DNA of 52,040 nucleotides, from NCBI GenBank assembly GCA_020438355.1, contig JAGQUT010000014.1, positions 1-52,040 of the forward strand, written 5' to 3'. Below the pieces are notes generated by a model. The model worked only from the letters and a program-made list of their open reading frames with translations. It did no database searches and had not been told where the DNA came from. Numbering within the stretch: the stretch's first letter is position 1; each line of letters opens with the position of its first letter. Positions 42,602 through 45,739 of this stretch are shown here, one piece after another. The DNA is from Solirubrobacterales bacterium (GTDB lineage: Bacteria > Actinomycetota > Thermoleophilia > Solirubrobacterales > 70-9). Both the position numbers and the translations under genes were made by a program.

Positions 42602-42674
42602 GCCGCTATCGTCCAGGGGTCTAGGACGCCGGATTCTCAGTCCGGAAACCGGGGTTCGAATCCCCGTAGCGGTA
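42602..42674 (+). tRNA. tRNA-Glu (anticodon CTC)
   Basis: A 73-base cloverleaf: acceptor GCCGCTA with TAGCGGT (a G-U first pair, usual in actinobacterial tRNA-Glu), D arm GTCC...GGAC, anticodon arm CCGGA-TTCTCAG-TCCGG with CTC, T arm CGGGG-TTCGAAT-CCCCG and discriminator A. CCA is not encoded. A terminator follows directly. Confidence 0.95.
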
Positions 42675-42681
42675 CCTCCCG

Positions 42682-42706: not shown

Positions 42707-42730
42707 TCTTTTTCAGGGGAGAATGAGTCC

Positions 42731-44131
42731 GTGGACCGGGGGTTGAGCAGAAGGGACTTCGGCAAACTGGCGATCGGCGGCATGGCGATGGCCGGACTTG
42801 CCGGGATGGGCGGACTCGCTGGCTGCTCGTCCGGCGGCAGTTCAACCTCCGATTCGAAACAGGACGTGATCGATCGTTTGCCCGATCTCGGGATTCCGAA
42901 ACCTGTCGATTACCTGCGGACAAGGTGGGCCGAGGACCCGCTTGCTCTCTGCTCCTACTCGTATCTGGCTCCCACGGTTTACGGGACGGGCATCCGCCGC
43001 ATGCTGGCCGAACCGGTCGGAAGGATGGTCTTTGCCGGTGAGGCGACGGCAAACATTCCGGCGACGGTTCACGGCGCAATTCAGGCGGGTGAAAGCGCCG
43101 CCCGGTTGGCCTCCCGCCAACTTCCTGCAGGAGCACGGGTGATCGTTGTCGGCGCGGGCGCAGCTGGGCTCTCCTGCGCCGGCGCGCTTGCGAAAGCCGG
43201 TCTCGAACCGGTCGTGATCGAGGCCTCGGACCGGATAGGAGGCCGGGTTCGGGAAGGGGACCTGGACGGTACCCCGGTCGAACTCGGTGCATCCTGGATT
43301 CACGGGGTCAACGGCAACCCCTTGACCGATCTGGCGAAGGAAGCCGGGGTGGGGTTGAAGCCCTTCTCCTACGAGTCACAATTTCCGGTTCCGGGGCAGG
43401 GGCAGATGGCGGCCGGTGGTGAGCGACGCTTCAATCGGGCGATCAATTCTTTTGCGCCTTACGCGCCGGGGGCGAAGCTCCAGACCGTTGACTCGCTGCT
43501 TCCCTGGCGATGGGGCCCCGGCCTCGAATGGGCGGTACAGATGGAAGTCCAGCAGGAATACGGGGCAGACCCGGGTCAGCTGGCCGCATTGGCGACCTGG
43601 GAGGGTCCCTGGCTGGGCGGCGGTGATGCTCTTCTGGACGGAACATATTCGGAGCTGTTCGCCGGGCTGGCCGGGGATGCCGAGATCAGGCTGGGCTCGC
43701 CGGTCGAGGTGATCGAGAGAGACTCCAGCGGCGTCACGGTGAAGTGGTCTGATGACGAGGTGAGAGGGGATGCCGTGGTTGTGACGGTTCCCATCGGGGT
43801 GCTCAAAGCGGGCACCATCGAGTTCCGACCCGCACTTCCACCGGGAACCAGAAAGGCAATCGAAGGTCTCGGGGCGGGTCTGCTCGACAAGGTCTGGCTC
43901 GCATTCGAGGAACCCTTCTGGGACGAAGAGGCGGAAGGCTTCGGCTGGATCGATCCCGCCCGGCCAGGACGATGGGGCAGCTGGGTAAACGCGGTGCCCG
44001 TCACCGGCAAGCCCTTCCTCATGACCCTGACCGGTGGCTCCGAGGCTCGCCGCCTTGAACGACAGGATGACTATCGGTTGATCAGCGGAACCATGTCCGC
44101 CCTCGCCTCGATGTTCGGCCAGACTGCTTGA
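42731..44131 (+). CDS. Tat-exported lipoprotein flavin amine oxidase, apparently circularly permuted
   Basis: A 466-residue flavoenzyme. It starts (GTG 42731, after GGGGAGA) with a twin-arginine motif SRRDF and lipobox LAGC at about residue 32. Residues 58-127 then read TRWAEDPLALCSYSYLAP and GRMVFAGEATANIPATVHGA, which in flavin monoamine oxidases is the extreme C-terminal segment. Only after it comes the normal N-terminal FAD motif VIVVGAGAAGL (residues 137-147) with EASDRIGGR. The chain then runs through GASWIHG, TVPIGVLKAG and LDKVWLAFEEPFW and ends at SALASMFGQTA, exactly where the missing segment would follow. All FAD-binding parts exist but in permuted order. It would oxidise an amine outside the membrane; substrate unknown. 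Confidence 0.85.
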   Translation: MDRGLSRRDFGKLAIGGMAMAGLAGMGGLAGCSSGGSSTSDSKQDVIDRLPDLGIPKPVDYLRTRWAEDPLALCSYSYLAPTVYGTGIRRMLAEPVGRMVFAGEATANIPATVHGAIQAGESAARLASRQLPAGARVIVVGAGAAGLSCAGALAKAGLEPVVIEASDRIGGRVREGDLDGTPVELGASWIHGVNGNPLTDLAKEAGVGLKPFSYESQFPVPGQGQMAAGGERRFNRAINSFAPYAPGAKLQTVDSLLPWRWGPGLEWAVQMEVQQEYGADPGQLAALATWEGPWLGGGDALLDGTYSELFAGLAGDAEIRLGSPVEVIERDSSGVTVKWSDDEVRGDAVVVTVPIGVLKAGTIEFRPALPPGTRKAIEGLGAGLLDKVWLAFEEPFWDEEAEGFGWIDPARPGRWGSWVNAVPVTGKPFLMTLTGGSEARRLERQDDYRLISGTMSALASMFGQTA

Positions 44132-44143
44132 AGAAAACTACGG

Positions 44144-45739
44144 TCAGGCGGGAGGACGGAGGTCGAAAGTGACCTGCCTGAAAGCCGAGATCGGCGACAC
44201 ATTGGGCGGGTTGCCTGCCGCCGTGAAGGACACGCGAATCTTCACTTTTCTCGAGGCTCCTGAGCGAGCGAGAGTCCGGCGAAGCTGGCGGTTGGCCTTC
44301 AGGACGACCTTGACGTTGCCGGATTTTCTGGTCTTCTTGCGGGTCGCACGGACCAGGTCGATCTTCTTTGCGTCATCGACGATGAGAATGCCTGCCCCCG
44401 GAACGCGGACCTTCAGACTGACCATGCCGTTGCCGAGCGAGGTCGAGCCGACGACCTTGAAGACGTTGCCCTTGGGTGGCTCGGGCTGAGTCGGCTTCCG
44501 GATTTTCGTCGGGTCTGAAGCATCGTTGTTGGTGCCGGCTGCCACCGACTCTCCACCCCCTGAAACGGTGGCGACATTGGTGACCAGCGAAGGCGGATCG
44601 TCCGCGACTGTGACGTCTACGATCACTGGCGGAAAGCTGCCACCCACCGGGAGAGAATCGGCTCTTGAGCAAGAGGCGGTCGCAAGATCGCAGTTCCAGC
44701 CCTCACCGGAGATCGCGGTCACCGTCAATCCCTCAGGGATCTGGTCGGTGACGGTGACCGTGCCGGTCGAAGCGAGACTTCCGCTGTTGCTCACCAGTAC
44801 CTCGTAAGTCCCGCTCCCGCCCGCGAGCAGATCGCCCTCATGACTCTTGGTGATTGTCAGGTCCGAACCGAAAACCGTGACCGGAATGAAGCCAGAAGCG
44901 GGCTGTGGCCAGGGACGCGAGTCGACGCTGCTGGAACCCGTGATCAGCGGCTGGCTTTCGTAGGTTCCGGGCAGAAGAAAGGTCCGTGAACAGGTGAACT
45001 TCCAGGTCTCCCCGGGGTCTAGGGCCGGTTCGCCAACCAGCGATGGCTGGTCGCCCGACTGGTAGACCAGTGGTGCGCACGCGGCGTCTGACAGCAGATC
45101 GCGAAGTCCGCCCGTGCCGCCGGGCGCAAGCGAAGGCCCTCCGACCCCGGTGTTGGACGCCGGGCTTTGATTGGTCAGCGAGTAGGTGAAGCCGACCGTC
45201 AGTGGCGGGCCTCCGGAATACCTGTCCGCCTCGATTTGAAGGCTTGTGCGGGGGCGGGTCAACTTGATCTCGAGTCCGGTGCCCTCCCCGCTGATTACGG
45301 TGTCCTGATCGCCGCCATGAACTGTCGCCTGCCATGAGATCGAGAGTGGTGCGTTGAAGATGCCTTCGTCGAGATCGACGACGTACGGGGCACCCTCGGT
45401 GAACCCTTCGACCGCAGCGCCGCCGGCAAGGTCAACGTCGCTTGCGAGAGTGCGAACCTCACCCGGAGTTCCATCCGAAGCGGGAAGCCGGACGGTAACG
45501 CTGATTTCGCTCAGGTCACAGGCGCTGGAGCCCATGTTCGAGATTCTGGCTCCGAGAACTATCGAGTCGCCCGGCCGGACGAAGGAATCGAGCTGATTCA
45601 TCGTCTCTGTGGCGAAACGGACTACCGGGTTCGATCCGGTGCATCCCACGGGGCTCTGATTCGCGTTCGAGGCAGGGGCGAAGGCCAGCGCTGGAATGAG
45701 CGCCACGGCCACTGCCAGACACCTTTTCATCTCCCTCAT
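44144..45739 (-). CDS. secreted DUF11-type repeat protein
   Basis: A 531-residue exported protein with signal peptide (LAVAVALIPALAFAPASNA). It has several beta-sandwich stretches and one clear DUF11-type domain (LTITKSHEGDLLAGGSGTYEVLVSNSGS... TVTDQIPEGLTV, about residues 300-410). The C-terminal 100 residues are a Lys/Arg-rich domain (VSLKVRVPGAGILIVDDAKKIDLV) of a kind I associate with surface proteins of Solirubrobacterales. No anchor is visible. The ATG at 45739 follows GGTAGGGG and is preferred to 45772; 45730 is also possible. It converges on the amine oxidase 12 bases away. Confidence 0.75.
   Translation of the reverse strand: MREMKRCLAVAVALIPALAFAPASNANQSPVGCTGSNPVVRFATETMNQLDSFVRPGDSIVLGARISNMGSSACDLSEISVTVRLPASDGTPGEVRTLASDVDLAGGAAVEGFTEGAPYVVDLDEGIFNAPLSISWQATVHGGDQDTVISGEGTGLEIKLTRPRTSLQIEADRYSGGPPLTVGFTYSLTNQSPASNTGVGGPSLAPGGTGGLRDLLSDAACAPLVYQSGDQPSLVGEPALDPGETWKFTCSRTFLLPGTYESQPLITGSSSVDSRPWPQPASGFIPVTVFGSDLTITKSHEGDLLAGGSGTYEVLVSNSGSLASTGTVTVTDQIPEGLTVTAISGEGWNCDLATASCSRADSLPVGGSFPPVIVDVTVADDPPSLVTNVATVSGGGESVAAGTNNDASDPTKIRKPTQPEPPKGNVFKVVGSTSLGNGMVSLKVRVPGAGILIVDDAKKIDLVRATRKKTRKSGNVKVVLKANRQLRRTLARSGASRKVKIRVSFTAAGNPPNVSPISAFRQVTFDLRPPA

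Follow-up and report, generated by a model that had tools for sequence, protein, structure and literature searches.

The window, that is, the whole stretch of 52,040 nucleotides that was analysed, encodes a protein, P0001, whose gene starts with GTG and lies between a tRNA-Glu gene and a convergent gene for a DUF11-domain protein (Table 1). A 527-aa reading of the same open reading frame only adds upstream sequence, which overlaps the tRNA-Glu gene (42602-42676), and was rejected. The neighbours in the window (DUF11, a DedA-type VTT domain, GH31, and an exonuclease-like gene) gave no clue to the substrate.

Table 1. Features of the P0001 gene, its protein product, and the flanking sequence (window coordinates)
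Feature	Coordinates	Strand	Basis
tRNA-Glu(ctc), directly upstream of P0001; conserved gene site in the genus	42602..42676	+	
Terminator-like hairpin between tRNA-Glu and P0001	42681..42707	+	Matches the consensus only; 1.6 per region in shuffled sequence
AGGGGAG, likely ribosome-binding site, 9 bases 5' of the GTG start	42715..42721	+	Read from the sequence; inference
P0001, circularly permuted flavin amine oxidase gene, 466 aa	42731..44131	+	Pfam Amino_oxidase match; order swapped relative to PDB relatives
Tat signal and lipobox, residues 1-31 (R7-R8; LAGC at 29-32)	42731..42823	+	Sequence, kept in relatives; cleavage inferred
Lipobox Cys32, predicted lipid attachment site	42824..42826	+	Sequence
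Displaced segment, residues 54-127, classically C-terminal (TRW...DP...SYSY...FAGEAT...ATVHGA...helix)	42890..43111	+	phmmer matches to LSD1/LSD2/SMOX/MAO C-termini
GEAT FAD-binding motif, residues 103-106	43037..43048	+	
New linker from old C-terminal helix to Rossmann strand, residues 128-133	43112..43129	+	GEAT-to-GxGxxG spacing; helix then strand in model
FAD Rossmann unit and substrate domain, residues 134-466, the classical chain from its N-terminus up to the last segment	43130..44128	+	
GAGAAG dinucleotide-binding motif, residues 141-146	43151..43168	+	
Lys387, which aligns to the LSD2/polyamine oxidase catalytic lysine	43889..43891	+	
Last helix, residues 447-462, the cut point; a classical chain would enter the displaced segment here	44069..44116	+	Model secondary structure; LSD2 696/699 join
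DUF11-domain protein, convergent; adjoins the permuted gene in relatives examined	44144..45736	-	

P0001 matches the Pfam family Amino_oxidase (PF01593) with an E-value of 4.3e-67 and 227.8 bits (cut-off 19.8), in three separate stretches. The motifs RTRW (residue 63), CSYSY (74), GEAT (103), and then ATVHGA precede GAGAAG (141) and the GGR motif (RIGGR, to residue 172), and the stop codon follows MFGQTA. Residues 101-127 are the FAGE(A/H)T segment and the helix after it, and the GxGxxG site, at residue 141, is away from the N-terminus. Classical members have the Rossmann unit first and the GEAT segment last; P0001 does not, and we therefore filed it as a permuted variant and not as an ordinary PF01593 member. 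The preliminary description, made from the sequence alone, had placed the FAGEAT...ATVHGA segment before the FAD Rossmann motif, and we found the motifs and the stop where it put them. It had also named a Tat lipoprotein signal, and the pattern is complete: a twin-arginine motif (SRRDF), a hydrophobic stretch, and a lipobox (LAGC) with Cys32, kept in most relatives.

Searching the PDB sequences with phmmer placed both parts of P0001 in the same amine-oxidase chains, with residues 134-463 matching their N-terminal and middle parts. In spermine oxidase, P0001 residues 134-206 correspond to 4-77, 316-410 to 232-336, and 54-127 to 404-480. In LSD2, residues 296-463 correspond to 523-696 and residues 54-123 to 699-769; one match ends at 696 and the other begins at 699, so the two new ends of P0001 abut in the classical chain. 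An 87-residue piece (residues 44-130) searched alone matched 47 distinct PDB sequences, all of them flavin amine oxidases and all at the C-terminus, including LSD1, spermine oxidase, and MAO-A/B (best E-value 1.5e-7). With the pieces of P0001 rejoined in classical order, the LSD2 score was 149.7 bits, up from 128.8, and one continuous alignment (LSD2 523-769) then spanned the join. Profile-profile comparison with hhalign (40 permuted against 29 classical proteins) aligned permuted columns 90-429 with classical columns 5-352 and left the two ends over. Aligned separately, the front piece matches the C-terminal FAD segment of LSD1, LSD2, and spermine oxidase, and residues 134-463 match all that comes before it. 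The domain order confirms that P0001 is a circularly permuted flavin amine oxidase. The permuted proteins are covered by no curated NCBIfam model; their matches all fall below the cut-off and come mainly from the Rossmann part.

We searched for further members with a junction profile, in which the old C-terminal segment is joined to the Rossmann unit. In the taxonomic order of the window (232 genomes), it gave nine permuted matches with E-values of at most 3.7e-75 over the full profile, all within the window's genus; the next match (E 6.9e-29) covered part of the profile, a clean separation of permuted from classical proteins. Permuted members also occur in 11 of 396 genomes in an even sample of the phylum (Actinomycetota), in 9 of 249 genomes in the class of G371 (families f5, f9, and f1), in 2 of 30 in the order of G389, and in 3 of 299 in Pseudomonadota, the phylum of Rheinheimera. 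They are found in about 64 of the 200 species in family f63, where many genomes consist of one or a few contigs. In Chloroflexota, a sample without a positive control, none of 350 genomes had a match at E 1e-32. Permuted amine oxidases are a widespread, mostly exported family that extends beyond one genus. All 65 loci that were checked with separate profiles for the three parts have the order displaced segment (A), Rossmann unit, and substrate domain, with a single copy of A, and 45 distinct proteins were kept for the tree. The closest relatives of classical order are about 33-41% identical and include L039 of G005, from the window's own genus. Relatives from Haloarcula and a Synechocystis plasmid proved classical when checked. 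The preliminary description knew of no permuted member, and we likewise found none in the open-access literature (subscription papers and preprints were outside the search). This widespread family is apparently an undescribed, rearranged topology of a known family.

The permuted proteins share their anatomy. All members are cut ahead of the (I/V)PxP...TxW strand; in classical enzymes a helix leads into this strand, and the permuted chains stop at that helix or shortly past it. The distance from GEAT to GxGxxG is 37-43 residues in 40 permuted proteins. A twin-arginine signal is present in nearly all, and a simple pattern detects a lipobox in 36 of 45; in L035, the G009 orthologue from the window's genus, the lipobox Cys is replaced by Arg. 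Two permuted proteins from Pseudomonadota (L138 and L139) have no recognisable export signal, and permutation is therefore not strictly tied to export.

Circular permutations usually arise by tandem duplication followed by the gain of a new start and stop (PMC2213659). None of the loci scanned had the corresponding A-B-A intermediate, in which both ends carry the segment; a weak hit (0.17) occurred only in the classical L016. In a maximum-likelihood tree with the parts put in one order, the window protein groups with L127 of family f63 in a clade made up entirely of permuted proteins (support 100/94). The best tree of all rows needs three changes of order, and no bootstrap tree has a single change, as would be expected if the permutation arose repeatedly; against this, the deep branches lack support, a tree that holds all permuted proteins in a single clade is not rejected by the AU test (p = 0.18), and the cut point and linker length are equal in all. 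The identical cut and linker lean towards a single origin with later transfer and loss, and repeated origin is possible but less probable. Tandem duplication and trimming would have taken place behind a retained signal peptide. The classical relatives L010, L039, and L183 also carry Tat-lipoprotein signals, so the signal probably predates the permutation, and these classical oxidoreductases are the likely ancestral form. More speculatively, a mostly exported family may have come from permuting the monoamine-oxidase/LSD fold, perhaps repeatedly at one cut point, and may have been kept since the tether moves from the FAD domain to a loop next to the substrate domain, which would turn the active site with respect to the membrane; we place this scenario at the doubtful end of what is plausible.

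Tat export suits proteins that need FAD bound before they cross the membrane, and amine oxidases use a lysine close to flavin N5 in oxidising amines, with O2 as the acceptor. An extracytoplasmic amine oxidase that makes H2O2 is therefore expected. P0001 would be exported by Tat loaded with FAD, bound jointly by the displaced GEAT segment and the GxGxxG unit, and would oxidise an amine, with hydride passing to FAD near Lys387 and O2 being converted to H2O2. The catalytic lysine is present in 29 of 40 sampled permuted proteins, P0001 included, and the other 11, all from family f63, have T, V, A, L, S, or R in its place. These f63 proteins (L095-L098, L121, L122, and L128-L132) retain the FAD motifs and are possible pseudo-oxidases, and the loss of lysine within f63 raises a second question, the role of the lysine-less copies. 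Where LSD1 has Tyr761, LSD2 a Phe, and spermine oxidase a Tyr, the window's clade has the non-aromatic Ile109; the usual aromatic cage may therefore be altered, and we make no claim of a histone demethylase or polyamine oxidase. Both the Ile and the lysine-less quarter or so of the sample could fit a permuted protein that is catalytically dead and kept as a flavin-binding or structural lipoprotein. We consider this rather unlikely for P0001, as the lysine is kept in it and in most sampled relatives, and the GxGxxG and GGR motifs are kept in all 45 distinct permuted proteins. P0001 is best read as a putative exported FAD amine oxidase with an intact catalytic lysine. Cys74 lies one residue before the MAO Cys by position counting, and a covalent flavin of the MAO type is not claimed.

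AlphaFold2 modelling of P0001 residues 44-466, with 40 permuted proteins, gave a mean pLDDT of 95.1 and a pTM of 0.92; the classical control L039, modelled with 29 classical proteins, reached 94.2 and 0.92. Structural alignments were made with VIA-align, which appears to follow chain order. Against maize polyamine oxidase, model residues 92-423 of P0001 aligned with 5-381 (331 residues, Z 26.1, 2.2 A), and the first 85 to 91 model residues of P0001 and the last 78 of the polyamine oxidase were left out. Across PDB amine oxidases, Z was 26-27 over 330-337 residues, with only model residues 86-423 matched. The L039 model, from the same genus, instead matched maize polyamine oxidase from end to end (6-428 with 5-459, Z 43.8). 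A partial match of P0001 beside an end-to-end match of L039 is the pattern that circular permutation predicts; the displaced 85 residues of P0001 fall outside a sequential alignment. The strand and helix elements of the displaced segment have the same order in both models. The high pTM, this shared order, homology, and the conserved FAD residues support the prediction that the displaced segment (58-127) occupies its classical position. The mature chain would then begin with the old C-terminal FAD segment, continue through a six-residue linker into the Rossmann strand, and end with the helix that precedes the old segment. Permutations and domain swaps can resemble each other in sequence, and in a domain-swapped oligomer the displaced segment would complete the FAD site of a neighbouring subunit. 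This is improbable here, given that a single chain is predicted to fold with high confidence, the linker is short and of near-constant length, and the amine-oxidase fold should bring the natural ends close together. We regard it as very probable that P0001 is a natural, permuted member of the LSD/polyamine-oxidase branch of flavin amine oxidases, Tat-exported and probably lipid-anchored, and that both parts fold into the ordinary fold.

In five further genomes of the genus (G009, G010, G011, G012, and G015), full-length orthologues share the domain order, cut point, and linker of P0001, with 65-69% identity across the entire permuted length; orthologue fragments lie at contig ends in G003, G006, and G017. 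Nei-Gojobori comparison of the window gene with the five orthologues gave dN of 0.25-0.30, dS of 1.26-1.49, and dN/dS of about 0.2, which indicates purifying selection on the permuted protein. The orthologues and this ratio led us to reject a pseudogene reading of P0001. That the source genome is a draft of 133 contigs leaves room for two adjacent genes or pieces having been misjoined in assembly, an error that is excluded for practical purposes by the same order, cut point, and linker in independent genomes, some of them single-contig, and by a dN/dS far below 1. The permuted enzyme proposed in the preliminary description is borne out by sequence, by orthologues of the same domain order, by profile-profile comparison, and by predicted fold. 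The genus orthologues mostly occupy one site, after tRNA-Leu(cag) and tRNA-Glu(ctc). Three members of the genus have an empty site, where tRNA-Glu is followed directly by the DedA gene, and the extra DNA elsewhere comprises the DUF11 gene and, convergent to it, the permuted gene. These two (DUF11 at window 44144-45736; L142, L146, and L148) appear to be jointly present or absent between tRNA-Glu and DedA within the genus. The G002 copy (L038:1312-2457) looks broken: it has a TAG in frame, and its substrate domain is short by about 100 residues.

LSD2/KDM1B and LSD1/KDM1A (PDB: 4gu0, 4fwe, 2z5u) are the best sequence and fold matches to P0001. They share its FAD motifs, its catalytic lysine, and, with the predicted fold of P0001, 337 residues at 2.5 A, whereas they have the classical order and are eukaryotic histone demethylases with extra domains; their C-terminus corresponds to the first 85 model residues of P0001. 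Maize polyamine oxidase (1b37) and spermine oxidase (7oxl) are, like P0001, single-module FAD amine oxidases of similar length, but are eukaryotic and of classical order. Classical Tat lipoproteins from bacteria and Haloarcula (L010, L039, and L183), named "FAD-dependent oxidoreductases", are about 37-41% identical and have the same signal type and fold, yet their C-terminal segment is still C-terminal. MAO-A/B and LSD1, which have the amine-oxidase fold, are drug targets. As far as we found, a natural permutation of a large two-domain flavoenzyme is apparently reported here for the first time for this fold. The known natural permutations cited in PMC2213659 include saposin-like domains and DNA methyltransferases, the same type of evolutionary event in other folds, neither of them a flavin amine oxidase. 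The permuted family is evolution's test of where an amine oxidase can be cut and rejoined, and could be useful for engineering biocatalysts and sensors. Automatic annotation would label its members generic FAD oxidoreductases, and sequential tools misread their domain order.

At all four f63 loci examined, a gene for a small membrane protein is convergent to the permuted gene (L170:6379-7032, L171:3217-3876, L172:3482-4237, and L173:6468-7190), and some of these genes overlap its 3' end; the two of the four proteins that were scanned had no Pfam match. Like the neighbours in the window, this one gave no hint of the substrate. In G745 (L180:1065-3664), the permuted gene is convergent to a second amine-oxidase gene, of classical order, and the two overlap by a few bases.
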